From the IMG/VR virus record IMGVR_UViG_3300021197_000193, positions 1-41,833 of that record: 41,833 nucleotides of DNA; one strand, written 5' to 3'. The position numbers were made by a program, and so were the translations under genes. Under the pieces are notes generated by a model that was not told the origin of the DNA, ran no database searches, and saw only the letters and a program-made list of their open reading frames with translations. How positions within the stretch are numbered: the first letter of the stretch is position 1; every line of letters begins with the position of its first letter. Positions 21,024 to 41,833 of this stretch are shown piece after piece. The DNA is from a virus.

Positions 21024-23918
21024 ATGCCTGTTTTAAAAAATAGAGCCTACGTTTCGACAGGTACTACCGGGACAGGCGCGATAACTCTGGGTAGCCCTGT
21101 TTCAGGGTATCAAAGTTTTGCAGATGCAGGGGTGTCTAACGGTAATTCAGTTAGGTACACTATAGAAGATGGCACAAACTGGGAAATTGGTGCTGGCACA
21201 TACACAGCTTCTGGCACTACATTGTCTCGTAGTCCAATTGACAGTTCAAGTTCGGGGTCTGCTATTAACTTATCAGGTAGCGCCCGCGTGTTCATTACCG
21301 CCGCTGCCGAAGATATATTACAGCCGTCCAATAACCTGTCCGATTTAGCCAACGCGTCCACTTCTCGTACAAACCTTGGGGTAGCTATTGGCTCAAACGT
21401 ACAGGCGTACGATGCGGATTTAACCGCGTTAGGTGGGTTAGCAAAAGCTGATGGTAACATTATCGTCGGTAATGGTTCAACGTGGGTCGCTGAAAATGGG
21501 GCCACTGCTCGAACTTCACTGGGTTTAGCCATTGGTACAAACGTGCAGGCGTATTCCACTGTCTTACAAAACACTACAGCGTCTTTCCTCACCGCGGATA
21601 AAACTAAGCTAGATTACATTACTGTCACGCAGGCAGTTAATCTTGACCAAATGGAGACCGATATTGCCGCGCTTGAGAACGGCATGGTCTATAAGGGCGA
21701 CTGGAACGCGGGTTCAGGTAGTTTTCCGGGCGGTGGCTCTGCTCAAACGGGTTGGTTTTACTACGTTTCAGGGGCAGGTACGGTTAATGGTGTGACATTT
21801 GCTGTAGGTGACAATGTAGTTGCTACAACAGATAATGCCTCTACAACCACATACGCAGGAAACTGGTCCAAACACGATCAGACAGATGCTGTTCAAGCTG
21901 TTGTAGGTTTAACTGGTTCAATTTCAAAAAGTTCTCTTTTGTCTGCATTAAACGTGGAAGATGGCGCAGACGTAACGGATGCAGGCAACGTAAATCCGCT
22001 TGTAGATGCGCACATAAACGTAAGCAGTGCGAGCAGTGGGCAATACCTTAACTGGAATGGTTCGGATTACGCTTGGGGTAGTATAGACACCTCTACCTTA
22101 ATGCCTAAAGCTGGTGGAACTTTTTCTGGCGCGGTTACATTTACGGATGCTGTAACCCTTGACGGGTCAATTGGTGGGCGCGATGTTGTTTGGGACAGAC
22201 CGAATAACTCGTTAATCTTTAACGACAACGCCAAAGCTAAGTTTGGAACAGGCCAAGATTTAGAAATATTTCATGGCTCCGACAGCAGTTATATAGATGA
22301 GGTGGGCGGCGGCTCTTTATTTATACGGACTAACGGCCCCAATGTGTTTATCGGCAAATACACGGGCAGCGAGTATATGGCCGTTTTTACGCCAGATGGC
22401 GCAGTGTCCCTTCGGTATGATAACGCCACGAAGTTTGAAACGACCAGTAGCGGTATAAACGTCACAGGCACGGTTACAGATGACGGTGCTACTCACGATG
22501 GTGATGTGACCTTCACGGGCGCAAGCTACAATGCTGTATGGGATAAGTCGGACAATGCCCTAGAGTTTGCGGATAACGCCAAAGCGAAGTTTGGAACTGG
22601 TGGTGATTTAGAGATTTATCACTCTGGTTCGGATAGTTTTATCAAAGACGTTGGTGACGGCGCGTTAAATGTATACAGCAATGCAGTTGATTTCTTTAAT
22701 GCGGCAGGCTCAGAGCGAACCGCAAGGTTTATCGGTGGCGGCTCAAACATTTTATTTAATGCGGGGGCTATTAAACTACAAACAAACGCAACAGGTATAG
22801 ACGTTACTGGAGTTATAACTGACGACGGCGCTACTCACGATGGCGACGTGACCTTTACGGGCACTTCCTACAACGCTGTATGGGATAAATCACAAAACTC
22901 CCTAGAGTTTGCCGATAATGCCAAAGCCACTTTTGGGGACAGTCGTGATCTACAAATATACCACGATGGAAACTCTGTCATAAGGGACGATGGTGGTGGT
23001 GATCTTGAGTTGCGTGGTTCCAACACCATTTCCTTAATGAACGCTGCGGGCACAGAGTATAAGCTACGGGCTTATACAGACGGTGCGGTTAATTTATATT
23101 ACGATAATGCCGTGAAGGTCGCAACGACTTCATCAGGTATTAGTGTAACAGGCAGTGTTGTTGCAACCACACATGAAAGTTCTGGTGCTCTTACTCTTAA
23201 AAGTGCTTCTGGTAGTGATCTCACTATAAATCACGGTGATAGATTAAACCTTGCGTATCAGGGTTTGCAGTACGGTGAGATTTATAGATCATCAGGCTTT
23301 AATATTGAAAACAAAGAGCAAGACGCAGATATAATCTTTAAAGGTAATGACGGTGGTAGCACCATTACCGCCTTGACCCTTGATATGTCTGATGCGGGTA
23401 CAGCAACATTTAACCATGATGCTAAATTCGCAGATAACGGCAAAGCTACATTTGGCGCAGGTGCGGACGGATCAATTTACTCTGACGGCAACAACTTTAT
23501 TATTGATGGTACAACAACAGGTATTTATCAAACTCTCATACAAGGCACAACAGGCGTAAAGCTGCGGAACAACGGTGGCTCTGGTGGGTATGCAGATGGA
23601 TTGATTGTAGACGGTGCCAACTCCGCGTCCACAAGAGTAAGGGCACAATATGGCACAACAACTCGCCTTGAGACAACATCATCTGGTGTAACGGTAACAG
23701 GCACCGTTGCCGCAACAGCCGTAACAGGCGATGGATCGGGGCTTACTAACCTACCTGCGGCGGCTGCTAGCGGTGTGTTTTATGAAAACGACACTAACGT
23801 ATCTTCTAATTACACTATTACATCAGGTAAAAACGCTATGTCGGCGGGTCCGATTACGATTGACAGTGGTGTAACTGTAACGGTTCCTTCGGGTTCAGCT
23901 TGGACGGTGGTAGCATGA
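21024..23918 (+). CDS. Large tail fibre with repeated modules
   Basis: 964 residues. The N-terminal 200 residues include TNLGVAIGSNVQAYDADLTAL and a second LAIGTNVQAYS copy, as in many phage fibres. From about residue 380 a module of roughly 105 residues repeats three times: VVWDRPNNSLIFNDNAKAKFG, YNAVWDKSDNALEFADNAKAKFG, then YNAVWDKSQNSLEFADNAKATFG, each followed by a D-L-(E/Q)-I-(F/Y)-H strand. A fourth, shorter copy (KFADNGKATFGAGADGS) follows. The C-terminus has GNGL-type 'GDGSGLTNLP' and ITIDSGVTVTVPSG motifs. It binds the cell surface. The next gene starts inside its stop. Confidence 0.88.
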   Translation: MPVLKNRAYVSTGTTGTGAITLGSPVSGYQSFADAGVSNGNSVRYTIEDGTNWEIGAGTYTASGTTLSRSPIDSSSSGSAINLSGSARVFITAAAEDILQPSNNLSDLANASTSRTNLGVAIGSNVQAYDADLTALGGLAKADGNIIVGNGSTWVAENGATARTSLGLAIGTNVQAYSTVLQNTTASFLTADKTKLDYITVTQAVNLDQMETDIAALENGMVYKGDWNAGSGSFPGGGSAQTGWFYYVSGAGTVNGVTFAVGDNVVATTDNASTTTYAGNWSKHDQTDAVQAVVGLTGSISKSSLLSALNVEDGADVTDAGNVNPLVDAHINVSSASSGQYLNWNGSDYAWGSIDTSTLMPKAGGTFSGAVTFTDAVTLDGSIGGRDVVWDRPNNSLIFNDNAKAKFGTGQDLEIFHGSDSSYIDEVGGGSLFIRTNGPNVFIGKYTGSEYMAVFTPDGAVSLRYDNATKFETTSSGINVTGTVTDDGATHDGDVTFTGASYNAVWDKSDNALEFADNAKAKFGTGGDLEIYHSGSDSFIKDVGDGALNVYSNAVDFFNAAGSERTARFIGGGSNILFNAGAIKLQTNATGIDVTGVITDDGATHDGDVTFTGTSYNAVWDKSQNSLEFADNAKATFGDSRDLQIYHDGNSVIRDDGGGDLELRGSNTISLMNAAGTEYKLRAYTDGAVNLYYDNAVKVATTSSGISVTGSVVATTHESSGALTLKSASGSDLTINHGDRLNLAYQGLQYGEIYRSSGFNIENKEQDADIIFKGNDGGSTITALTLDMSDAGTATFNHDAKFADNGKATFGAGADGSIYSDGNNFIIDGTTTGIYQTLIQGTTGVKLRNNGGSGGYADGLIVDGANSASTRVRAQYGTTTRLETTSSGVTVTGTVAATAVTGDGSGLTNLPAAAASGVFYENDTNVSSNYTITSGKNAMSAGPITIDSGVTVTVPSGSAWTVVA

Positions 23919-24988
23919 CACTAAAAGTAGACACAATAACCAACTTAGCGGGTACAGGCGCACCGAACATTCCTGACGGGGTATCCATAGCAGGCACCGC
24001 GTTAGCTTCTACTTCGACAATGCAGTACGCGGCTTCTGGTTCAGAGCCGTCTTCTCCAGAAGATGGGGAGCTTTGGTTTGATACGTCAAGCAACGAGTTT
24101 AAAATGTACGTTAACGGAGGTTGGTACACGGTTACTGTTACGGCACCCCCTGCTTGGTATGGAACTCGCTCTCTTGTAGGAGGTGGACATCCAAACACTA
24201 ACCAAATACAATATTTTGCTAACGCTAGTAACACAAACGCGCAAGACTTTGGAGACCTATTAACATCTAGGTACGGACTTACCGCAGCGTCTAATGGAAC
24301 ACGCGGTCTATTTGCTGGTGGGGGAACGCCTTACATAAACGTAATAGAATATGTCACTATAGCAAACACAGGTAATTCAGTAGATTTTGGAGATTTAACC
24401 GAAGTAAGATTTTATTTTACAGGTTGCGGTAACGGAACATACGCTTTTTTCCTAGGGGGTGTTAACGCAGGAGCTAATATTGATTATGTAACAGTTTCAA
24501 CTGCCGCAAATGCAGGGGACTGGGGTGATCTTAATACATCACCAGTATACAATGGTGCTTGGTCAGCGGCAAATGAATCTCGTCTTTTGTCTGGATATGA
24601 CAATCAGCAAAATAATCGAATACAATATGTTTCTTCAACAACTCCGGGGAACGCGCAAGATTTTGGAGACATGGTTGCTGGTACTGACTTTGCTGCTGCC
24701 GTAAATGACGCCACAAGAGCGGTTTACGGAGGTGGAGGTGCCACTGATACTAATGCTATGGGGTATGTAACAATAGCAACAACTGGCAATGCTACAGATT
24801 TTGGAGATTTAACTTCTAATAGAGGCCGCTGCGCTGTTTCGGCAAGTTCCACTAGAGGATTTTGGTGCGGTGGCGGCAATAGCGTTAACAACATTGATGT
24901 TGCTACAATCCAAACCCCCGGCAACGCTACTGATTTTGGTGACTTAACCAATTCAATTACTTATGCCGGGGGAACGGCGGGGAGCTAA
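23915..24988 (+). CDS. Propeller-like tail protein, paralogue 1
   Basis: 357 residues. The ATG overlaps the fibre stop as ATGA; a TTG five codons earlier is less likely. The N-terminus (TLKVDTITNLAG, then EPSSPEDGELWFDTSSNEFKMYVNGGWYTV) is a fibre-tip attachment module. Six repeats of about 45 residues follow, each with an (N/G)-A-x-D-(F/W)-GDL core preceded by IEYVTI-like strands and a GGG turn. Six Kelch-like repeats point to a six-bladed beta-propeller, an inference. The repeat cores in this copy are the most diverged of the three. Confidence 0.75.
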   Translation: MTLKVDTITNLAGTGAPNIPDGVSIAGTALASTSTMQYAASGSEPSSPEDGELWFDTSSNEFKMYVNGGWYTVTVTAPPAWYGTRSLVGGGHPNTNQIQYFANASNTNAQDFGDLLTSRYGLTAASNGTRGLFAGGGTPYINVIEYVTIANTGNSVDFGDLTEVRFYFTGCGNGTYAFFLGGVNAGANIDYVTVSTAANAGDWGDLNTSPVYNGAWSAANESRLLSGYDNQQNNRIQYVSSTTPGNAQDFGDMVAGTDFAAAVNDATRAVYGGGGATDTNAMGYVTIATTGNATDFGDLTSNRGRCAVSASSTRGFWCGGGNSVNNIDVATIQTPGNATDFGDLTNSITYAGGTAGS

Positions 24989-24991
24989 ACA

Positions 24992-26080
24992 ATGAGTACC
25001 TTCAACGTTGGTAATATAGAAAACAGGTCCGGTGGAGCACCAGATTTTAGCCAAGGTCTTACCGTTGGTGGTACAGACATTAGCACTTTGGTGACGATGA
25101 CCGAATATCACACAGGCGCTAGTGCGCCTTCGTCCCCCGCAAACGGCGCGATTTGGTATGATGGGACGGTTATAAAACAATACATTAATGATGGTTGGTA
25201 CACACTTAGTGCGGCTTTGCCCCCTGCTAATTCAGGTAATAGAGGTGTCTTTGGGGCAGGGAATTTATTACCAAGTTATGCTGCTTCAAACGCAATGGAT
25301 TATATTACTATATCTACGACAGGTAACGCTACAGATTTTGGAGACATGGTTGCAAACAACAGTATTTATGGGGGATGCTCTAATGGCTCTAGGGGTTTAT
25401 TTGGAGGTGGTTATCCTAATAATAGTGGCAATACTACCACGATAGATTACATCACTATAGCCACAACAGGTAATGCTCAAGATTTTGGTGATCTTACAGT
25501 CGCAAGGCGATCACTTGCCGCACTTTCAGATGGCACGAAGGGGGTTTTTACTGGTGGTTTTGTGAGCGGTGATACTAATACTCTAGACTACGTTACCGTA
25601 GCTACAACGGGTAATGCTCTTGATTTTGGTGATCTAACGGTTGCTGGACAACAAGGTGGATGCTGTGCCGACTTTGTTCGGGGTGTAATTCGGCAACAAT
25701 ATTCAGCAACCAATGCGTACAGTTATATTACGGTTGCTACTACGGGCAATGCTACTGTTTTTGGTAACTCTACGCTATTTGGTAATCAAGGAAACAATGG
25801 TTGTGCAGATGCGACTAGGGGTATTTTTGCAGTATATAACAAGATTATAGAATATATTACAATTCAAACCGCTGGGAACGCTACGGACTTTGGCGACCTT
25901 ATAATAACTAACAGTAATAATTCCGGCGCTGTTGCCAATAGCACAAGGGCTGTTTGGGCTGGAGGTCAATCGGGCCTAAATGCAATGAACTATGTCACTA
26001 TTCAAACACTAGGTGATGCCGCAGACTTTGGCGATTTAGCGTTGGCAAGATATGGTCTTGCTGGAGCATCTGGAGAATAA
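24992..26080 (+). CDS. Propeller-like tail protein, paralogue 2
   Basis: 362 residues. It has the same design as its neighbours: an N-terminal module (TFNVGNIENRSGG; SSPANGAIWYDGTVIKQYINDGWYTL) and then six repeats around TTGNATDFGD or close variants. The fourth repeat is altered (NATVFGNSTLFG) and lacks the usual aspartate. It starts 3 bp after paralogue 1. It is probably a receptor-binding tip or adhesin, by analogy and context. Confidence 0.75.
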   Translation: MSTFNVGNIENRSGGAPDFSQGLTVGGTDISTLVTMTEYHTGASAPSSPANGAIWYDGTVIKQYINDGWYTLSAALPPANSGNRGVFGAGNLLPSYAASNAMDYITISTTGNATDFGDMVANNSIYGGCSNGSRGLFGGGYPNNSGNTTTIDYITIATTGNAQDFGDLTVARRSLAALSDGTKGVFTGGFVSGDTNTLDYVTVATTGNALDFGDLTVAGQQGGCCADFVRGVIRQQYSATNAYSYITVATTGNATVFGNSTLFGNQGNNGCADATRGIFAVYNKIIEYITIQTAGNATDFGDLIITNSNNSGAVANSTRAVWAGGQSGLNAMNYVTIQTLGDAADFGDLALARYGLAGASGE

Positions 26081-26083
26081 ACT

Positions 26084-27166
26084 ATGAGTACGTTAAAAGT
26101 AGACTCCATTAAGAACAACGGTAGCGCCGTTAATTTTACAACCAACATCCAATCGGGAGATGGTCTGGTTAAACGTGATTACTACGAACAAGCGTCTGAA
26201 CCTTCGGGGGCACCGAACGCGGCTGTTTGGTACGATACTGCGGATGAACAGTTAAAGTTAAAGGTTAACGACAAGTGGTACAATGTTACGGCGGAGGCAC
26301 CTTTAACAGTCTGGTACGGATCAAGGGGAGTTTTTGCAGGGGGCCAAAGTAGCTATTTTAATGTAATAGAGTACATTACCATAGCCAATACAGGTAATGC
26401 TACAGACTTTGGAGATTTAAGCGCTAATAAGGTTGGTGTAGGTGCGGTATCAAATAGTGTTAGGGGAGTTTTTGGAGGAGGTACTGTACAGTATTCCAGT
26501 GTAACAAATGTGATGGAATACATTACTATAGCCACCACGGGAAATGCTACAGACTTTGGGGATTTAACAGTAGCAAGGCAAACAAAGGGCGCAAGTAACG
26601 CTGAAAGAGGTGTTTTTGTTACTTATAGTCCCGCGGGTAATGTAATAGACTATATTACCATAGCCACCACAGGGAATGCTACTGACTTTGGTGATTTAAG
26701 TAGCTCAAAGTCTAATACAGCAGCAGCTAGTGGTAGTGTAAGGGCGTTGTTTGCTGGTGGTTTTTCTAGCCCCAATAGATTAAATGTAATAGAATATATT
26801 ACTTTAGCTACCGCAGGAAACGTTACGGACTTCGGAGACTTATTAGCAGGAGTCAACGGTATGGGGGCTTGCTCAGATTTAACAAGATGTGTTTTTGCTG
26901 GGGGATACACTGGTTCAAACTCAAATGTTATGCAATATGTTACTACAGCTACGACAGGTAACGCTACAGACTTTGGAGATTTACTTACTGGAATAAACCA
27001 GACTGATGGTACTTCTAATGGGGTAAGGGGAGTTTTTGCTGGGGGTACTACTGGTAGTGACATTAACACTATTCAGTATATTACCATCCAAACTCCCGGT
27101 AATGCCGCCGACTTTGGTGATCTTACAGCGGCTAAATACGCCGTGGGAGCTTGTTCAGGGAATTAA
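26084..27166 (+). CDS. Propeller-like tail protein, paralogue 3
   Basis: 360 residues. The N-terminus is TLKVDSIKNNGSAVNF, with SGAPNAAVWYDTADEQLKLKVNDKWYNV. Six repeats with well-conserved cores follow, four reading TGNATDFGDL exactly. The repeat DNA is also similar within the gene, suggesting recent expansion or gene conversion. It starts 3 bp after paralogue 2. A short gene follows immediately (27168). Confidence 0.75.
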   Translation: MSTLKVDSIKNNGSAVNFTTNIQSGDGLVKRDYYEQASEPSGAPNAAVWYDTADEQLKLKVNDKWYNVTAEAPLTVWYGSRGVFAGGQSSYFNVIEYITIANTGNATDFGDLSANKVGVGAVSNSVRGVFGGGTVQYSSVTNVMEYITIATTGNATDFGDLTVARQTKGASNAERGVFVTYSPAGNVIDYITIATTGNATDFGDLSSSKSNTAAASGSVRALFAGGFSSPNRLNVIEYITLATAGNVTDFGDLLAGVNGMGACSDLTRCVFAGGYTGSNSNVMQYVTTATTGNATDFGDLLTGINQTDGTSNGVRGVFAGGTTGSDINTIQYITIQTPGNAADFGDLTAAKYAVGACSGN

Positions 27167-32432: not shown

Positions 32433-34298
32433 ATGCCGTTCCAAAAACTTATTTTTAAAGCGGGTATTAACGACGAACGTACAAGCTATTCTTCGGAAAA
32501 TGGTTGGTACGAGGGCGATAAAGTTCGTTTTCGTCAAGGGTTTCCTGAAAAAATAGGTGGCTGGAACAGGATATCTACGTCTACGTTTCAAGGCGTATGT
32601 CGTTCCTTGATGAACTGGGTTACCTTATCAGGGTTTAACCTTGTGGGTGTTGGCACCAACTTAAAGTTTTACTTGGAACAGGGTGGCGCGTATAACGACA
32701 TAACCCCTATTCGCGCTACTACGACTAACGCAGCGACTTTTGCAGCTAGTAATGGGAGCGCTGTTGTAACTGTAACTGATGCTAGTCACGGTGCGTCTAT
32801 TAATGACTTTGTTACTTTTAGCGATGCAGCGTCTTTAGGCGGCAACATCACCGCGGCGGTCTTAAACGTAGAACATCAGATAACAGCGGTCACTAGCGCC
32901 AATGCGTACACTATAACAGTGTCAGTCACAGCAAATTCATCTGATACGGGTAATGGAGGTTCTGCTACTGATGCAGCATACCAGATAACCACAGGGCAGT
33001 CGTCGGTTGTGCCGCTTACAGGTTGGGGCGCAGGTACGTGGGGCGGCGGTACTTGGGGTAATGGTCTAGCTTCTAACGAGGCTATTCGGCTTTGGAGTCA
33101 AGCCAACTTTGGGGAAGACTTGTTGTTCGCTGTGCGCGGCGGTTCCATATACTACTGGGACGCCACAAATGGTGTGTCAAATCGCGGGGTGCTTTTGTCT
33201 AGTCTTGGGGGCGCGTCTAACGTACCAACAATACAAAACTTACTACTGGTATCTGATATTAATAGGTTTGTGTTCTGTTTTGGGTGCAACAGCCTTGGTA
33301 GCGCTACGCAAGACCCCATGCTTGTACGTTGGTCAGATCAAGAAAGCGCGGTTAATTGGACCCCCGCTAGTACAAATCAAGCAGGTGGGCTTAACTTGTC
33401 TCGTGGTACAGAGATTGTAGCCGCCAAACAAGCCCGTCAAGAGGTTCTAGTTTGGTCTGACTCCGCGTTGTATTCCATGCAGTATGTAGGAGCACCCGCG
33501 GTCTGGGGCGCGCAGCTTGTAGGAGACAACATATCTATTGCTTCTCAAAACAGTGTGGCTTTTGCTAATGGCGTTGCGTACTGGATGGGTAAAGATAAGT
33601 TCTACAAGTATGATGGGCGCACACAGCCGCTACGCTGCGACATAAAAAGACATATATTTAACGACCTTAACACTTTGCAGTATGACCAGTTTTTTGCAGG
33701 GACTAACGAAGCGTTCCATGAAATATGGTGGTTCTATTGTTCTACAGGGCAGACAGAAATTGATCGTTATGCCATATACAATTACTTGGAGGATACTTGG
33801 TACTATGGTTCTTTAGGGCGCACTGCGTGGCTAGACTCTGGTCTTAGGAACTTTCCGCTTGCAGCTACCTACTCAAATAACTTGGTCAACCATGAAGATG
33901 GTATTGATGATAACGAGACAGGTGCAAACGCGGCAATAGCTGCAAACATATCGTCTTCTCAATTTGATTTGGGGGACGGCAGCAGGTTTTCTTTAATAAG
34001 TCGCGTGCTTCCTGACATGACATTTGAAGGGTCTACAACGGGCGCACCCGCGGCCACGCTTACACTGCAACCCATGGCAAACTCAGGGTCAGGATTTAAC
34101 AGTCCATTATCTGAAAGCGGCAACAGTGCAGGGACAATAACTCGTACGGCTACCGCACCTATAGAACAATACACAGACGAGTTATACATGCGCGTGCGGG
34201 GGCGACAGATGGTGATAAAAATAGAATCTACGGGGCAAGGAGTTATGTGGCAACTTGGAACACCTCGTTTAGATACTAGGCCAGACGGACGGCGTTAA
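32433..34298 (+). CDS. Tail nozzle protein (P22 gp10/T7 gp12 class, probable)
   Basis: 621 residues. It begins MPFQKLIFKAGINDERTSYSS then WYEGDKVRFRQGFPEKIGGW, typical of the nozzle ('packaged DNA stabilisation protein') of marine podoviruses. A beta-rich insert (about 95-185, VTVTDASHGASINDFVTFSD) may be an added surface domain. It has a Gly/Trp run GWGAGTWGGGTWGNG, and a C-terminal RxRGRQMVIKIESTGQGVMWQLG motif as in nozzle proteins. It closes the short tail below the adaptors. The stop overlaps the next start. Confidence 0.8.
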   Translation: MPFQKLIFKAGINDERTSYSSENGWYEGDKVRFRQGFPEKIGGWNRISTSTFQGVCRSLMNWVTLSGFNLVGVGTNLKFYLEQGGAYNDITPIRATTTNAATFAASNGSAVVTVTDASHGASINDFVTFSDAASLGGNITAAVLNVEHQITAVTSANAYTITVSVTANSSDTGNGGSATDAAYQITTGQSSVVPLTGWGAGTWGGGTWGNGLASNEAIRLWSQANFGEDLLFAVRGGSIYYWDATNGVSNRGVLLSSLGGASNVPTIQNLLLVSDINRFVFCFGCNSLGSATQDPMLVRWSDQESAVNWTPASTNQAGGLNLSRGTEIVAAKQARQEVLVWSDSALYSMQYVGAPAVWGAQLVGDNISIASQNSVAFANGVAYWMGKDKFYKYDGRTQPLRCDIKRHIFNDLNTLQYDQFFAGTNEAFHEIWWFYCSTGQTEIDRYAIYNYLEDTWYYGSLGRTAWLDSGLRNFPLAATYSNNLVNHEDGIDDNETGANAAIAANISSSQFDLGDGSRFSLISRVLPDMTFEGSTTGAPAATLTLQPMANSGSGFNSPLSESGNSAGTITRTATAPIEQYTDELYMRVRGRQMVIKIESTGQGVMWQLGTPRLDTRPDGRR

Positions 34299-34915
34299 TG
34301 GCTAACGAAATTGACCAAGTTGACCCACCTGCGTTACCCCTAGCACCGGACACGTACAACAGACCGTTCACCGACCAACAAAGTAACGTTCTGCGCTTGT
34401 TTTTTCGACGGCTTACAAATGTGGTTACTACTCTAACCGCAACAGATGTAGGTGGTAAATTTCTGTACACCCCGTGCGCATCATTCTACAGTACGCAAGA
34501 TCAAACGGCTGGGTCTATTAACACAGGGTATGCGGTTACCTTTAATAACACTGCGTACAACAGCGCCGTTACGCTATCTAACAATAGTCGGATAAATGTA
34601 CAAAACGCAGGTGTATACAAGTTTGATGTTACACTGCAGTTAGAACACAACAACTCAAGCGAAACACCTGTAACTGTTTGGGAACAAAAGAACGGTAGCG
34701 CTGTAGCATATTCTGGTCATATGTTTGACGTAAAAGGTAACGACGATTACGTTATACACTGGGGTTTTACTACTGCGTTAGCTGCAAACGACTACGTAGA
34801 AGTCTATTGGGCAACAGGGGACACCCAGTTAAATTTGCACACAGAAGCAGCCACCTCTCCACATCCCGGCATCCCGTCTGCGTCTATAGACATATCCTTT
34901 GTAAGCAATGTATAA
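34298..34915 (+). CDS. Fibre or tail-tip protein with jelly-roll-like domain
   Basis: 205 residues. It has a short N-terminal attachment part, ANEIDQVDPPALPLAPDTYNRPFTDQQSNVLRLFFRRL, then a beta-rich domain (FYSTQDQTAGSINTGYAVTF, SRINVQNAGVYKFDVTLQLE, DYVEVYWATGDTQLNLHTE) resembling C1q/TNF-like sandwiches common in marine phage tail tips. It is coupled to the nozzle gene (TAATG). Its stop codon lies within the promoter of the acyl carrier gene. Confidence 0.75.
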   Translation: MANEIDQVDPPALPLAPDTYNRPFTDQQSNVLRLFFRRLTNVVTTLTATDVGGKFLYTPCASFYSTQDQTAGSINTGYAVTFNNTAYNSAVTLSNNSRINVQNAGVYKFDVTLQLEHNNSSETPVTVWEQKNGSAVAYSGHMFDVKGNDDYVIHWGFTTALAANDYVEVYWATGDTQLNLHTEAATSPHPGIPSASIDISFVSNV

Positions 34916-34916
34916 T
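34887..34916 (+). promoter_or_regulatory. Promoter of the ACP-ketosynthase pair
   Basis: TAGACA (34887-34892, five of six) is followed by an 18-bp spacer, then a consensus TATAAT (34911-34916) that contains the TAA stop of the preceding tail gene. The predicted start lies near 34923, about 23 bp before the ACP start codon. It would allow expression of the pair independent of the late operon. Confidence 0.6.
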
Positions 34917-34945
34917 AACCGCACCCTTAACAGCGAGGTGCGAAA

Positions 34946-35233
34946 ATGGACTTTATTGAATTATTTGATGCGTGCGTGCGTGACCACAAACCACGATTAG
35001 ACAAGTATACTAAACCTACATCCTTAGATGTTACTCTAGCAGAAGAAGATATTGGGCTAGACAGTTTAGATGTAACACTTACATTTGTTTTGTTGTTTGA
35101 AATATACGGAATACCAGAAACAGAAGACTTTAATGTGCCTACAGAATCATTACGCCATGTACGAGATTACATGTGGGAAAACAAAAGCCGTGATTTTGAT
35201 ACAGTAGAAGCAGCCATGGAGGTTGTGGCGTGA
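34946..35233 (+). CDS. Acyl carrier protein
   Basis: 95 residues. EEDIGLDSLDVTLTFVLLFEIYGI (about 33-56) is the helix-II region of acyl carrier proteins. Ser40 in DSLD is the site for 4'-phosphopantetheine, as in E. coli AcpP 'ADSLD'. IPETEDFNVPTESLRHVRDYMW matches the helix III-IV end. The N-terminus is basic and longer than usual, and the C-terminus is about 15 residues longer than AcpP. No phosphopantetheinyl transferase is visible in the window, so a host enzyme (AcpS or Sfp type) would be needed. The last base of the stop is shared in a GTGA overlap with the ketosynthase start. Confidence 0.88.
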   Translation: MDFIELFDACVRDHKPRLDKYTKPTSLDVTLAEEDIGLDSLDVTLTFVLLFEIYGIPETEDFNVPTESLRHVRDYMWENKSRDFDTVEAAMEVVA

Positions 35234-36342
35234 TATATTTAACTAAAATATACAGTAATTACGCCGAAACTCCTACACTGGTTGACGATGTGCCGTACCC
35301 ACAACATGCGTATATAATCCCCGAAACCTTTAAACGAGCTAAATCTGGGTTAAAATATCCCCCACATACGCTATTAGATACGGTGATTACCGACGAAGCT
35401 ATACAGTACGTGTTAGACAACCCTGTAACAGGCAAGACTGGGTTTATTTTTGCTGCGGGCAATCAAGGATGGATGGGCAACAACGGGCGTTATGATAAAG
35501 ACGACACTACGGAACTTCACTATAAAGTAAAATTACCTTTTATTGTACTAACAAACATATACGCAGGGCGTGTGGCTAGCATGTTTCATGTACACGACCA
35601 CGTATCTACGGACGCTAGCGCGTGCGCGTCCAGCTTAAAGGTAATGATGGACGTACAAAACCTTATGAACAATTTTGGGTTTGATCGCGTTATTGTGCTT
35701 AGTGGCGAAGATGCAGTCAACAACCTAACCTTAGAGTTTTTTGGTGAAGCAGGTGCGAGCCTGCAGTACAAAGATGAAGACCGCGTAAAACCATCTGCGT
35801 TCGACACAGTTAACCAAGGGTTCTTTCTAGGGCAAGGTGCAACGCTATGTATATTTGAAAAAGAACACGCGGTAGGACATGAACCGAAAGGCGCGTTTTT
35901 AGGTGCGTACACGTCCGCGGAAGATAACACAAACCCTCTTGGGCAACGATCTGATGGTGAAGGTTATTCTAAAGCTATAGAAGGCGCACTGCATATTTCT
36001 TGTACGCCTCCGTCTCTTGTGCAAGTTGTTAAGACCCACGGAACAGGTACAGAAGTTAACAACAAAGCAGAAAAAGCGGCGCTGCAACGTAGTTTGAGAG
36101 AATTTGTTGCTACATCGTACAAACCACGCATAGGACATACTATGGGCGCTAGCGGGTTATTAGAGACAGGGTTGTTGCTAAATGACCTTAAGTGCGGTAT
36201 AGTACCAAAAATCCTCAATAGGACCGAAGACGATAATGTGTTCTTATCCTATGATGCGCCAGCCCCTAAAGGGCCATTTCTTAGTCTAGCCGCTGGCATG
36301 GGTAACATCTATTCAGCCGCAATTTTTTCTACGGAGGTGTAG
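35230..36342 (+). CDS. Beta-ketoacyl-ACP synthase (FabF/FabB-like)
   Basis: 370 residues from a GTG coupled to the ACP stop. Active-site Cys132 lies in STDASACASS. His270 is in THGTGTEVNNKAEK, Lys298 in KPRIGH, and His303 in GHTMGASGLLE. Spacings (Cys to His 138, His to Lys 28, Lys to His 5) closely match FabF (140, 32, 5), so it looks catalytically complete and not a chain-length factor. It is about 40 residues shorter than FabF, mainly before the cysteine. The glycine-rich gatekeeper near the end is altered (AAGMGNIYSA instead of GFGG-type). It should condense a malonyl unit with an acyl chain on an ACP. It sits in a late virion operon, far from any fatty-acid gene. Confidence 0.88.
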   Translation: MIYLTKIYSNYAETPTLVDDVPYPQHAYIIPETFKRAKSGLKYPPHTLLDTVITDEAIQYVLDNPVTGKTGFIFAAGNQGWMGNNGRYDKDDTTELHYKVKLPFIVLTNIYAGRVASMFHVHDHVSTDASACASSLKVMMDVQNLMNNFGFDRVIVLSGEDAVNNLTLEFFGEAGASLQYKDEDRVKPSAFDTVNQGFFLGQGATLCIFEKEHAVGHEPKGAFLGAYTSAEDNTNPLGQRSDGEGYSKAIEGALHISCTPPSLVQVVKTHGTGTEVNNKAEKAALQRSLREFVATSYKPRIGHTMGASGLLETGLLLNDLKCGIVPKILNRTEDDNVFLSYDAPAPKGPFLSLAAGMGNIYSAAIFSTEV

Positions 36343-36343
36343 G

Positions 36344-36811
36344 GTGGCGACTGTAATTGATAGCAAAACTACGCAGCTTGAGCCTGCGCAAGTCGTCATG
36401 GAATTTTCAGGTAGCTATAACACCACTAATCTTCCTCCCGCCGCGTTTGGGGCAGCGTTAATTAAAGAGTTTTCCATGCCCAATACAGATATAGTGCAAT
36501 ATGGAAATACAGTGTTTATAGGGCATCGTGGTACAGGAAAAAACAAACACCAAATGTGGGGTCGTGGTTTAACAGTAGATACGGCGCAAAACTTCATTGT
36601 TGCAGGGTTAAAATACTTTACACATTTGCAGGATTTGGGTGTAACGCATTACAGAACGCAATACGATGGTAACATTTATGACAGCGCTTTTCGTGCGTGG
36701 AAACGATACGCAGACAGGGCGGACACTAAAGTAGCGGCAGGGCGAACTGCTTCAGGGAAGACTCAAGGGTTTGTTATGCTAGGCAAAATACCCTTAACAG
36801 AGGTGGTGTAG
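36344..36811 (+). CDS. Unknown protein between ketosynthase and giant virion protein
   Basis: 155 residues from a GTG preceded by GGAGGTGTAGG, one base after the ketosynthase stop. It has a YGNTVFIGHRGTG strand, a 'KNKHQMWGRGLTVDTAQNFIVAGLKYFTHLQDLG' helix and strand-like ends (VTHYRTQYDG; TQGFVMLGKIPL). The beta-strand, long-helix, strand order and its place just before the internal virion protein recall the T7 gp13 slot, a GNAT-like fold; I cannot confirm this. No acetyl-CoA P-loop motif is obvious. It could be a virion protein or an acyltransferase partner. Confidence 0.55.
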   Translation: MATVIDSKTTQLEPAQVVMEFSGSYNTTNLPPAAFGAALIKEFSMPNTDIVQYGNTVFIGHRGTGKNKHQMWGRGLTVDTAQNFIVAGLKYFTHLQDLGVTHYRTQYDGNIYDSAFRAWKRYADRADTKVAAGRTASGKTQGFVMLGKIPLTEVV

Positions 36812-36812
36812 T

Positions 36813-39800
36813 ATGTCTTTTGTTATAGAAGCCGTTGAAGACGTAGTTGACACTGCAGTAGATTTTGTTGAAGACGTTACAGGTAATATTGCTGACGTTG
36901 TTGAAGATGCTGTTGAATGGGTTATGGATGAAGTTGTTCAGCCTGTAGTTGATGGTGTAGAAAACGTTGTAGAGTATGCGTTAGATAATCCCATTGAGGC
37001 AATTGCTACCGTTACCGCTGCAGTTATGACCGCAGGTGGCAGTCTTACATTAATGCAAGGCGCGTTGATAACAGGGGCTGGCGCAGGGACACAAGCGTTA
37101 GTTGATGGAGAAAGTTTAGAGGACGCGGTAAAAGCCGCGGTTATCAGCGGTGCAGGTACTTATGTAGGCGGGACAGTCGGTAACTATGTAGGCCCATCCA
37201 TAGAGGCAGGAACCGCAGCGGTATTTGCTAACCCTAAGTTAGCTTCTACAGTAGCCACGGCGTTAACCGCAGGGGCAGAAGGTGCCGCAAGGACGTACGT
37301 AGCAACAGGTGACCTAGAGCAGGCGGGCAACGCGTTTTTAACTGCCGCTGCAGTATCTGGCACGCAGGCGGGGGTGGATGCCGCCACAAATAAAATTATG
37401 GGTAACGTTGGGTACGAGCTAAACGAACTAGGCAACGTTGAACTAGACGGGGTGTCTGCAGGCATTAAAAACGCGGTCAGTGCGGGGATATCTGCAGAAT
37501 TGCTAGGGCAAGACGTGTCTAGCGCCATGTTATACGCAGGTGCAGGAGACATACTTTCTGATATTGGTAGTTCTGAGTTCCTAGAAAAATATGTAACTGA
37601 TACCGCGTTTGTTCAAAGTATTGTAGACAAATATACCCCTGTAGTTGAGTACATGCAGGAGTTTGTGGACAGCGTTGAAGCGTCCGCAAAAGAAAATTTA
37701 ACTGATGCGCAAATAAAAGTTATAACCGATGCTACTGTTGCAGCGTTCGATGTAGCTAAACAGGGTAACCCTGAACTAGCAGGAGAAACATTTTTTGGTA
37801 AAGATGGTTTAGGTAAGTCCGCGTATGATACGATGTACGACTTTATTACCGATCCAATTAACTCTGCGTTAGACGATTTTACTGGTAATACCGCTACTAC
37901 AATTGAAAAAGCTACAGCAATAAATGAGGCTGTAGAAGAACAAAAAAATGTAGTAGCTGCGCATAATGCGCGGGTCGCTGAGTACAATGTACTATGGGAC
38001 ACTTATGATACGTTTGCCTACGTACGAGATCAGAGGCTTGCGGAGCACGAAGCCAACCCCACTCAAGCCACTTTAGACGCGCTCAATACCGCAACACAGG
38101 ATTTAAATGCCCAAGCTGCGCGAATAAACGCAGAAGCGCCCGCGTTAAAAAATCAAATCGACGCTGGGCTAACGGCGGATGGCCCTATTGCTGCTGCTAA
38201 CGCCGCGGTTGACGCCGCTAACAAAGATTATCAAGACACATATCAATACATTTTAAGTGATTTTGAAGACCTAGACGCCGCGCTAGTCCCCATGAAACAG
38301 GAGGCAATTAAACTAGCCGCAACATCTTTAATACCTGATCTAGCAGTAGATGAGTATGGAAATTTTTATGGTTTATCTCCTGATGAGGTGTATGAAAACG
38401 CACTGCAAAACTTTACCAATAGACCCACTACAGAAAGCTCTATTCGTAGCGCGTTAGACACAGCAAGATTTTCCGCGGTAACCAAGGCTCTCGCAGATCA
38501 AGGCATAGATATTTACAGTCTAAGTAAAGATCAGATTGGCACATTGCTGAACTACGCGAACAACGAACTGCAAACATTTGCGGATATTGTGCCGCAGCCG
38601 GGAGATGCTCCTATAGCAGGAACGCAGGAGTTTTCTAACAACCTGTTTAACTTGCTGCGAAATGATACTTCAGATGCAACTCCTGAATTTAAAGCCTTTA
38701 TAGAAGCGTCTGGTTTTGACATTGGTGATGATGATTACCAACCTTTTTTAAACGGCGAGTACATACAAACTACTGACGGTAGTGTCATAGCCACGGAGGG
38801 GATGAGCGAAGCAAACTTACTTTACGCGCTAGAAAATAATAACATATCGGTAGATGAACTTGAATACGCAGGTCCAGCCGCGCAAGCCAAATTTGCAGAG
38901 TTATTATCATCAGGTATGAGTTACAGTGGTGATATCCCGGGAATAGGTGCGGCGTTGCTTCAAAATGCAGAAGCACAGACTGATGGTTTTGCGTCTGCGC
39001 AGGATAACAGAATACCTTTTGACGATGGGGTTACCGCAGAAGACTTGCTTTCGGGTGAGGCAGTAATCACTAATAAAAACGGCCAACCTACATGGACTTT
39101 AGTTGACACTGTTGTGGCCGATGGTGATGGCGTTGTCACAGTTGCAAATAATGACGGTACGGTAGACCTTCTAACTGGCACTTTAGACGCAATAGTTATA
39201 ATGGAAAACAGCGCTACATTATCCTTGTTAGTAACAAACAGAAACCCAAAGTCATTGTTGTCGCCAGAGTACCTTGAAGGTCTTTACGGCACTACCGTAG
39301 GGTCTGAAATTAAAACAAGTTTACTACCCCCACCGAACGGTGCAGCGTGGATGCAGACTGTGTTAGACCTTACAGCAGAGCAAGGTGCGCAACTGGATGA
39401 GCAAGTTGGTAGTCCTTTCCACAAAGCCTTTAGTCGTTTGTATGAAGTGTACAAAAAAGAAACGCCTGAAGACCAACAGAAAGCATTTACGAACGCCGCA
39501 AGCGTAGTGACGGGGGCTAGTGGAGAATTACTAACCGCAGCGGCGTTTCTAGGTGGATTGGCTTTAGATGTAGATGTAGAAAACAACGCGGTGCTATCAG
39601 TCGCAAAAGACATGGTTAAACTTAGCGGAGATTTACGGACCGACGAGTGGAAGGCAGGCGCGGCTGATATGCAAGCGCGGTCACAAAACTACGATGCAGA
39701 GTGGCGAGCTAACAACCCCGGCAAAGAACCTACCCTAGCAGACAAAGGTTATTTAAAAGCACAGGCAATATGGGGGAACCTTACTGAGCACCCCGTGCAA

Positions 39801-41833
39801 TTTCTTGCTGAAAATGTGGGCAGTGAAATACTTCAAGAAGTCCCAATATTTTTGGCATCAGGTGGTACAGCTAACGTAGCCAAAGCAGCATTGATAAACG
39901 GCGGAGAAGCCTATGCTAAACGAATAGCTACGCGTGCCGCAGTGGGGACCGCGCTAGTTCTTGACGCAGGAGAAGCCTTTGGGGGCACCGCGGCTGCATC
40001 GTTTGATGAAACTTTTGCTACCGCTATGGCTGCGGTAAACGACGATGGATCACAACGGTTTACAGAACAAGAAGCCACTGATCTAGCTATGGAAACAGCC
40101 ACAAATGCGGGTATGATTGCAACGCTTACTACGTTAGCTACCGCAGGGATCGGAGGACAGGCGCTAGCAAAAAACATTCTTGGGGATAACGCTAGCGAAT
40201 TTGCAGGTGACTCTTTAGACATACTGGTTAAACGAGTTAACGACGGGTCAAAAGTTGTAATAAAAGAAGGTAGCACTGAGTTTGTAGAAGAAGCGCTACC
40301 GCAACTGTATACCGCGACTGTAAATTCACAGATTGATCCTGAATACGATGTGGCGGGGTCTGTTTGGGAAACTGGATTTATGGGGGTTGCTTCGGGTACG
40401 GGCGTTGCGGCGACGTTGTATTCTGGTAATGCTGTAGCAGACACGCTATTGCGAACAAATCCTAATGTTCGAGACGCGGTAAAAAATGCTGCAACGCCAG
40501 AAATGGCCTCTCAAGTGCTAACTGATTTAGGTGTTACAGACACCACAGTTTTGAACAACGTGTTAAACTCTACATATGACACGTTATATGTAAGCACTAA
40601 AGAAGCAGAGAAAATATTTGCTGACCAGAATCCAGACTATCAACCCACCCAAGCAGAAATAGAGTCGTTTGTATCCAAGAGCGCGGAGTCTAATGTAGCA
40701 ACAGCGGTTGCAGCGTACATAGACCCAAAGTTTCTAGATGCAGACGAAATACGTGCCGCGGCTGCTGATGCGGGGTTAACCCTTACAGACGAACAGGTTG
40801 CCAATTCCGTAGGGAAAGTCGATGACGAAACTTCCAGCCTTGCGTCATTAATAGATGCTTTGCGTACCGCCCCCGCAACACAAGGGGACATAGTTGACGC
40901 AATAAGCAATTTAGATTTAAATGCTGCGTCTACTGAAGCAGTTAAAGAAATTGTAGATAGCGCCATAGCGAGTATACCCGCAGGTGTGAGTACAGAAGAT
41001 GTTAGCAACGCTATAACCACGGCTATATCCGAATTACCTGCGGGTGTGAGCACAGAAGATGTTAGCGATGCTATAAACACAGCGCTAGGTTCACCTGCAA
41101 CAGTAGATGAAGACGGTAATCCTGTCGAAGCTACAGGTATATACAAGGTAATAGACGATTTACCTGAAGGGTTAAGCACAGAAGATGTTAACTCTGCAAT
41201 ATCTGACGCGTTAGAAGATATGAACAACTTGTCTACAACAGACGTAGATAAAATTGTAAGTGATGCACTGGGTTCACCTGCAACAGTAGATGAAGACGGT
41301 AATCCTGTCGAAGCTACAGGTGTATACAAGGTAATAGACGACTTACCTGAAGGGTTAACCACAGAAGATGTTAGCGAAGCTATAACCACTGCGATAGCAG
41401 ATATACCTGAAGGGTTAAGCACAGAAGATGTTAGCGATGCTATAAACACAGCGCTAGGTTCACCTGCAACAGAAGACGATCCTGCTACAGGTATATACAA
41501 GGTAATAGACGATTTACCTGAAGGCTTAAGCACAGAAGATGTTAACTCTGCAATATCTGACGCGTTAGAAGATATGAACAACTTGTCTACAACAGACGTA
41601 GATAAAATCGTAAGTGATGCACTGGGTTCACCTGCAACAGTAGATGAAGACGGTAATCCTGTCGAAGCTACAGGTGTATACAAGGTAATAGACGACTTAC
41701 CTGAAGGGTTAACCACAGAAGATGTTAGCGAAGCTATAACCACTGCGATAGCAGATATACCTGAAGGGTTAAGCACAGAAGATGTTAGCGATGCTATAAA
41801 CACAGCGCTAGGTTCACCTGCAACAGAAGACGA
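36813..41833 (+). CDS. Giant internal virion protein, C-terminus cut by window edge
   Basis: The frame is open from ATG 36813 to the right edge, at least 1673 residues. Ribosome site: AGAGGTGGTGTAGT. It begins MSFVIEAVEDVVDTAVDFVED and has an amphipathic, Ala/Gly-rich hydrophobic region (about 60-130, AIATVTAAVMTAGGSLTLMQ) that could insert in membranes. Long helical, Ala-rich segments follow, including AAANAAVDAANKDYQDTYQ. The last 230 residues form a repeat array of GLSTEDV and SDA(I/L) units. Size, position after the nozzle region and composition fit ejection proteins of podoviruses. No lytic transglycosylase motif is evident in the visible part. Confidence 0.8.
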   Translation, partial: MSFVIEAVEDVVDTAVDFVEDVTGNIADVVEDAVEWVMDEVVQPVVDGVENVVEYALDNPIEAIATVTAAVMTAGGSLTLMQGALITGAGAGTQALVDGESLEDAVKAAVISGAGTYVGGTVGNYVGPSIEAGTAAVFANPKLASTVATALTAGAEGAARTYVATGDLEQAGNAFLTAAAVSGTQAGVDAATNKIMGNVGYELNELGNVELDGVSAGIKNAVSAGISAELLGQDVSSAMLYAGAGDILSDIGSSEFLEKYVTDTAFVQSIVDKYTPVVEYMQEFVDSVEASAKENLTDAQIKVITDATVAAFDVAKQGNPELAGETFFGKDGLGKSAYDTMYDFITDPINSALDDFTGNTATTIEKATAINEAVEEQKNVVAAHNARVAEYNVLWDTYDTFAYVRDQRLAEHEANPTQATLDALNTATQDLNAQAARINAEAPALKNQIDAGLTADGPIAAANAAVDAANKDYQDTYQYILSDFEDLDAALVPMKQEAIKLAATSLIPDLAVDEYGNFYGLSPDEVYENALQNFTNRPTTESSIRSALDTARFSAVTKALADQGIDIYSLSKDQIGTLLNYANNELQTFADIVPQPGDAPIAGTQEFSNNLFNLLRNDTSDATPEFKAFIEASGFDIGDDDYQPFLNGEYIQTTDGSVIATEGMSEANLLYALENNNISVDELEYAGPAAQAKFAELLSSGMSYSGDIPGIGAALLQNAEAQTDGFASAQDNRIPFDDGVTAEDLLSGEAVITNKNGQPTWTLVDTVVADGDGVVTVANNDGTVDLLTGTLDAIVIMENSATLSLLVTNRNPKSLLSPEYLEGLYGTTVGSEIKTSLLPPPNGAAWMQTVLDLTAEQGAQLDEQVGSPFHKAFSRLYEVYKKETPEDQQKAFTNAASVVTGASGELLTAAAFLGGLALDVDVENNAVLSVAKDMVKLSGDLRTDEWKAGAADMQARSQNYDAEWRANNPGKEPTLADKGYLKAQAIWGNLTEHPVQFLAENVGSEILQEVPIFLASGGTANVAKAALINGGEAYAKRIATRAAVGTALVLDAGEAFGGTAAASFDETFATAMAAVNDDGSQRFTEQEATDLAMETATNAGMIATLTTLATAGIGGQALAKNILGDNASEFAGDSLDILVKRVNDGSKVVIKEGSTEFVEEALPQLYTATVNSQIDPEYDVAGSVWETGFMGVASGTGVAATLYSGNAVADTLLRTNPNVRDAVKNAATPEMASQVLTDLGVTDTTVLNNVLNSTYDTLYVSTKEAEKIFADQNPDYQPTQAEIESFVSKSAESNVATAVAAYIDPKFLDADEIRAAAADAGLTLTDEQVANSVGKVDDETSSLASLIDALRTAPATQGDIVDAISNLDLNAASTEAVKEIVDSAIASIPAGVSTEDVSNAITTAISELPAGVSTEDVSDAINTALGSPATVDEDGNPVEATGIYKVIDDLPEGLSTEDVNSAISDALEDMNNLSTTDVDKIVSDALGSPATVDEDGNPVEATGVYKVIDDLPEGLTTEDVSEAITTAIADIPEGLSTEDVSDAINTALGSPATEDDPATGIYKVIDDLPEGLSTEDVNSAISDALEDMNNLSTTDVDKIVSDALGSPATVDEDGNPVEATGVYKVIDDLPEGLTTEDVSEAITTAIADIPEGLSTEDVSDAINTALGSPATED
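41131..41833 (+). repeat. 354-bp tandem repeat in the giant gene
   Basis: A 354-bp (118-codon) unit begins at about 41131 and recurs at about 41485, running to the right edge. I see only two mismatches, both silent (GGG/GGC and ATT/ATC). Each unit contains smaller repeats: 'LPEGLSTEDV', 'SDALEDMNNLSTTDVDK' and 'GSPATVDEDGNPVEATG'. A divergent, shorter version of the units precedes it (about 40990-41130). Confidence 0.9.

Follow-up and report, generated by a model that had tools for sequence, protein, structure and literature searches.

A candidate three-gene acyl module encoded among the virion genes of uncultured phages

In rhizobia, the specialised acyl carrier protein (ACP) NodF and ketosynthase (KS) NodE set the special acyl chain of Nod factors, which is used by the N-acyltransferase NodA (PMC9048898). 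Toxin acyltransferases that take their acyl group from acyl-ACP are reported to adopt a GNAT fold lacking the elements that contact coenzyme A (CoA) (PMC8339906), and CdiC acylates a large delivered effector encoded beside cdiC, strengthening target-cell binding (PMC8510554). ACP and KS genes have also been described in roseobacter prophages, where acpP and fabF lie in the phage-assigned DNA of marine bacteria in the order fabG–acpP–fabF, which is that of the bacterial operon (PMC8224337). Here we analyse an overlapping pair of genes for an ACP and a β-ketoacyl synthase in a 41,833-nucleotide stretch of viral DNA (the window), which is positions 1 to 41,833 of the 65,104-base IMG/VR virus record IMGVR_UViG_3300021197_000193 and in which an initial annotation, made from the letters alone, had picked out the pair. 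We propose, at a probability of about one half, that the two are parts of a dedicated viral three-gene acyl module in the order ACP, KS and GNAT-fold acyltransferase.

Lipid genes in phages are commonly interpreted as metabolism borrowed from the host, whereas the KS described here is a virus-specific branch present in at least 573 viral contigs. In every locus scanned that has it, a viral ACP accompanies it, a predicted acyltransferase does so in nearly all cases, and it lies among virion genes. The proposal combines observed gene order, conservation and catalytic residues with predicted folds and presumed catalysis.

An overlapping ACP–KS gene pair

The ACP gene (34946–35233; coordinates are those of the window, and all features described lie on the + strand) starts with ATG and encodes 95 amino acids (aa) with a predicted 4′-phosphopantetheine site at Ser40 in the motif DSLD, an assignment that draws on the open reading frame (ORF), a family profile, hhalign and conservation. 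Its last bases, GTGA at 35230–35233, overlap the KS gene, as the initial annotation had stated. That annotation placed the pair at 34887–36342; the end is right, and the start falls 59 bases 5′ of the ACP start, where the preceding gene ends and a promoter-like leader lies. As a single sequence, the window ACP had no Pfam match and matched TIGR00517 at E = 0.053, under every library threshold. The ACP family profile found ACP structures in the PDB (best E = 6.7e-6), all 60 matches listed being ACPs; hhalign paired the family with Escherichia coli AcpP at a probability of 92%, and 8 of the 22 ACP relatives matched PF00550 weakly (best 8e-4). Asp39, Ser40 and Leu41 are kept in 100 of 100 distinct viral ACP copies, bearing out the serine that had been read from the window; outside this DSL site, the viral ACP sequence is far more variable than that of the viral KS. 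The protein is strongly acidic, with a net charge of −13 in the window and −7 to −21 in 22 relatives (AcpP, −15). No viral phosphopantetheinyl transferase was found in the window's own record; a host enzyme would be needed for ACP loading.

The KS gene (35230–36342) starts with GTG and encodes a 370-aa β-ketoacyl synthase of the KAS I/II type, assigned from Pfam, NCBIfam, a structure model, conservation and alignment to FabF and FabB. Both Pfam domains, Ketoacyl-synt_C (3.6e-15) and ketoacyl-synt (4.1e-9), matched over their curated cut-offs, the N and C domains scoring 36.8 and 56.5 bits against a cut-off of 20.8. Many KAS models matched, the best being NCBIfam fabF (2.4e-28), and a PDB sequence search returned mostly FabF-type enzymes. 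The protein reached only 99 bits against the 493.75 of the FabF equivalog (NCBIfam TIGR03150), and it is therefore a KAS homologue, not a FabF. Family-profile matches for both proteins, which the initial annotation had named as a check, were thus obtained: the KS through the Pfam cut-offs and the ACP through its family profile.

An alignment with FabF and FabB of E. coli places Cys132, His270, Lys298 and His303 opposite C163, H303, K335 and H340 of FabF at near-identical spacing, just as first described, and none of the four varies among the 104 distinct viral KS copies. The same description called the ketosynthase complete, which is true of the catalytic set and not of the full length or the gate: the N-terminal segment known from FabF is short by about 40–50 residues, GMGN[IV]Y replaces the FabF motif GFGGTN, and Met stands at the position of FabF Phe400, with Met357 and Asn359 kept in all 104 copies. 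An AlphaFold model built from 22 relatives (pTM 0.88, some loops low) has the thiolase fold and superposes on FabF structures (Z 40.8 to Streptococcus pneumoniae FabF over 356 residues, root-mean-square deviation (rmsd) 3.0), at about 20% identity in the structural alignments. From the kept catalytic set, we infer that the KS has condensing activity.

We compared the KS with host genes in plasmid records, in 99 genomes of one phylum and in a tree with nine cellular enzymes. The 23 viral KSs in the tree formed one fully supported clade against the nine FabF/FabB-type enzymes; the best KSs among plasmid records were only about 25–31% identical to the viral KS; and matches in the 99 genomes were no better than E = 5e-27, a phage-like contig itself excepted. 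No bacterial host gene closely similar to the viral KS was found in the collections compared. The excepted contig, the sole match in the bacterial genome collection, carries ACP, KS and GNAT genes and belongs to a Balneolaceae metagenome-assembled genome (L081, JAGYJQ010000016.1), in which it is possibly misbinned.

Linkage to a predicted GNAT-fold acyltransferase

A third gene, which went unmentioned in the first reading of the sequence, follows at 36344–36811 and encodes a 155-aa predicted GNAT-fold acyltransferase-like protein, recognised from its AlphaFold model, PDB structure matches and linkage. The model (pLDDT 92.5) had GNAT acyltransferases as its top PDB matches listed (Z 11.4, 128 residues, rmsd 2.5). 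By sequence, a PDB profile search gave one chance match (E = 3.7), a PHROG scan of 23 members of the gene family gave weak scattered matches only, and a Pfam scan with E up to 1 gave no HlyC-family and no NodA-family match. The CoA-binding P-loop motif [RQ]xxGx[GA] is present in 2 of 113 copies; the other 111 are without it, and a comparable lack has been reported for the acyl-ACP-dependent toxin enzymes (PMC8339906). Asp79 is invariant and His61 is kept in 74 of the 82 copies from ACP–KS loci, two residues that may or may not correspond to the catalytic His/Asp pair of HlyC-type enzymes.

A KS scan of IMG/VR yielded 75 related loci and a second, profile-guided scan the at least 573 viral contigs; locus sets comprised at most 80 matches per similarity scan, and the counts below show association, not unbiased frequency. 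Among 50,697 annotated phage records, a close KS (about 53% identity) together with an ACP match was seen in MW202545 alone, a metagenome-assembled 'Siphoviridae sp.', ctpbd312, from Manatee Spring, and in the same collection no ACP–KS pair was found in cultured phages. The initial statement that phages rarely carry such enzymes accordingly describes annotated phages, with one close match, and fails for this uncultured virus group, in which the pair is present.

A profile scan of 278 loci found an ACP in all 206 that bear a KS; the KS never occurred without it. With identical copies merged, there were 83 distinct ACP–KS–GNAT loci, 11 with ACP–GNAT, 21 with GNAT only, 8 in which ACP–KS ends at the contig end and 2 with ACP–KS and no GNAT despite room, so that GNAT is the next gene in 83 of the 85 distinct ACP–KS loci with sufficient downstream sequence. 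In the ACP–GNAT loci inspected, ACP runs straight into GNAT with no KS between them, and no KS was found in one 62-kb ACP–GNAT record. This state is found in several separate places on the GNAT tree, with six changes, at least four of them forced by well-supported branches. Because it recurs in this way, the acyltransferase seems to be what the ACP is linked to, the KS being an optional chain-builder, and the idea of acyl transfer gains support from a GNAT-fold gene that stays beside the ACP even without the KS.

The KS, ACP and GNAT genes are all under strong purifying selection, with median ratios of non-synonymous to synonymous substitutions (dN/dS) of 0.04 for the KS, 0.07 for GNAT and 0.12 for the ACP (hub gene, 0.045). 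A search of ten virus records, of which six bear the KS, detected no FabG, FabZ or FabD; further chain processing, if any, would therefore be carried out by host enzymes.

Two trivial explanations were rejected. Host contamination, in which the pair would be absent from related phages and flanked by host genes, had been raised at the outset; the pair occurs in hundreds of related viral contigs with viral flanks, and the 206 loci with an ACP and the single viral KS clade rule contamination out. Chance ORFs are ruled out by the profile E-values, dN/dS and the invariant residues.

Gene context, proposed mechanism and alternatives

Genes for a terminase, a portal, a tail-hub protein (phrog_3287) and an endolysin surround the ACP and KS genes, in agreement with their original placing inside a tail/virion operon. 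The upstream virion gene (32433–34298) encodes a 621-aa phage stabilization or tail-hub-like protein (phrog_3287, E = 5.9e-67); between it and the ACP lies an ORF for a 205-aa protein (34298–34915), for which a weak resemblance to a family of minor tail proteins (E = 0.013) was the only match. Directly 3′ of the GNAT gene, an ORF encodes a very large repeat-rich protein of at least 1678 aa that continues beyond the window end (36813–41833; L002:813-7921). Its N-terminus is hydrophobic/amphipathic, no PHROG match to it was found, and it is a possible candidate for the acyl target. This protein contains long near-identical repeats (STEDVSDAINTALGSPAT...) and is interrupted in the record by a run of N, probably an assembly gap within the repeats. 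Elsewhere in the window (23900–27166), three successive proteins of about 360 aa resemble paralogues, with repeated 'TGNATDFGDL' motifs, and are perhaps propeller-like virion proteins. Judged by terminase and hub, the closest cultured phages infect Pelagibacter, gammaproteobacteria, Roseobacter or cyanobacteria, and no KS or ACP match of the viral module family was found in them.

The leader upstream of the ACP (34887–34945), delineated by a promoter match, a repeat motif and RNA folding, holds a promoter-like element, TAGACA-18-TATAAT (34887–34916), and an inverted repeat, GCACC...GGTGC (34921–34941). The promoter-like element is an 11/12 match, promoter-like sites across the region being no more numerous than chance, and relatives have similar elements 5′ of the ACP. 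The inverted repeat overlaps the ACP ribosome-binding site, and the leader RNA folds with a z of −3.4. The exact repeat motif has a single match in the window and occurs once per locus in 67 loci, at the ACP start where checked; it is retained in L242, which has an ACP without a KS, and is absent 5′ of GNAT in loci without an ACP. The leader is possibly a regulated element that moves together with the ACP cassette. In L149, a close hub relative, a GNAT-like gene begins exactly where the 205-aa gene stops, the position that the leader and ACP occupy in others; because the two genes directly adjoin there, the ACP, with or without the KS, behaves as an insertable cassette.

If the three genes act as a module, a host phosphopantetheinyl transferase would load the viral ACP at Ser40, and the KS would dock on the ACP and lengthen the chain there by a two-carbon unit; the product would be a 3-oxoacyl chain or, after the action of host FabG, FabZ and FabI, an extended chain instead. 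With the ACP rather than CoA as its direct donor, the GNAT-fold protein would then move the acyl group onto an amine or hydroxyl of its target; where the KS is missing, charging of the ACP would fall to host enzymes alone. The module thus suggests that, during infection, these viruses build a fatty-acyl group and link it to some target. Because the genes lie among virion genes, directly 5′ of the very large protein, a virion or ejection protein is one plausible target, with a host lipid or a small molecule equally open. A more ambitious version, which we regard as speculative and rather unlikely, is that the phages encode a self-contained lipid-modification system, in which their own ACP, a re-gated KS making a special (perhaps 3-oxo) chain and an acyl-ACP-dependent GNAT-fold transferase lipidate a virion or ejection protein for host-membrane entry in genome delivery.

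Several observations weigh against a three-gene module. The L072/L132 lineage has ACP–KS with no GNAT on contigs of 12–13 kb, and GNAT-fold proteins occur among virion genes in 20–21 distinct loci without an ACP or KS. Because the fold is predicted and GNAT-fold genes lie at the same place without an ACP, the GNAT-fold protein may have a structural or other role, its adjacency being perhaps mere operon convenience. Arg74 and Phe116 of the GNAT-fold protein are conserved where an ACP is present and vary in copies without one, an association that is confounded by ancestry and for that reason is not used as proof.

The best-surviving alternative, though an unlikely one, is an auxiliary metabolic gene pair, in which the ACP and KS boost elongation by the host fatty-acid synthase, altering membrane lipids or supplying lipids while infection proceeds, and GNAT is unrelated. 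It would account for the invariance of the ACP serine and the KS catalytic residues and for the L072/L132 lineage, whose L072 copy lies in a non-virion region; in roseobacter prophages acpP and fabF were put forward as auxiliary metabolic genes (PMC8224337), as was acpP in an Alteromonas podovirus (PMC11705849). But at about 25–31% identity to the best plasmid-record KSs, in its own deep clade, the KS is unlike a recently borrowed host gene; the gate is altered in every viral copy (FabF Phe400 to Met, GFGGTN to GMGN); FabG, FabZ and FabD are missing from the ten virus records; and the ACP is retained beside GNAT where the KS is absent. The divergence, the altered gate loops, the absent N-terminal segment and the lack of these partner enzymes in the viral records searched likewise weaken the implication of the initial annotation that the KS is a simple FabF-like gene of host metabolism. 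The L072 pair itself (L072:3267-4680) is diverged and follows a helicase-like gene, seemingly in the replication region of another phage lineage.

We consider it improbable that the GNAT-fold protein serves in virion assembly or ejection, at the T7 gp13 position and without acyltransferase activity, and that the ACP and KS were inserted upstream at a tolerated site. GNAT-fold or annotated GNAT genes do lie at similar places in phages without ACP–KS, and T7 gene 13, which encodes an internal virion protein of similar size, heads the internal-virion genes. Against this, comparison by sequence alone (hmmsearch, hhalign) detected no relation of the GNAT-fold protein to T7 gp13 or CRP-902 gp35, and at several tree points the ACP stays beside GNAT without the KS. 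Roseobacter phage CRP-902 has an annotated GNAT gene 3′ of a related hub gene (L291:9894-10328), with no detectable sequence relation to the window GNAT, which may hint at a broader GNAT-fold habit among podovirus virion genes. Finally, a KS that does not condense and acts as an acyltransferase or structural scaffold, passing an acyl group to the viral ACP or taking one off it, would fit the gate change in all copies and the shortened N-terminus but is very unlikely given the Cys, both His and the Lys in 104 of 104 copies, which are the full decarboxylative-condensation set.

Comparison with known acyl-transfer systems

The viral KS resembles FabF and FabB in its predicted thiolase fold, in the near-identical spacing of its Cys-His-Lys-His set and in a structural match of Z about 40. 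It differs in its identity of about 20% in structural alignments, its own deep clade, its shorter N-terminus and GMGN gate, and its constant pairing with a divergent ACP of its own. The roseobacter prophage acpP and fabF genes are alike in being an ACP and a KS in phage-assigned DNA, whereas the viral module is without fabG, has a far diverged KS and has virion genes as neighbours.

The proposed module is like NodF, NodE and NodA in having an ACP and a KS together with a predicted acyltransferase, the three genes standing in a row in 83 distinct loci, and unlike them in that its third gene has no NodA-family match in the Pfam scan and its genes lie among virion genes. With HlyC, CyaC, ApxC and CdiC it shares a predicted GNAT fold without the CoA-binding motif, although the viral protein has no HlyC-family match in the Pfam scan. 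Toxin-activating acyltransferase systems use the cell's own ACP and are not known to bring a KS.

Of the annotated phage records, ctpbd312 (MW202545) is the only one found to carry all three genes, arranged as in the window and with a KS of about 53% identity; its KS alone is named, with the ACP and GNAT annotated as 'hypothetical'. The viral KS is matched at 2e-37 by phrog_35856, a PHROG family without an assigned function. Our reading offers a likely function for this family and for the ACP and GNAT-fold genes, which are now 'hypothetical' or without an assigned function. If it is true, phages make and transfer a dedicated acyl group, and virions, host membranes or signals would be modified in a way that is new.
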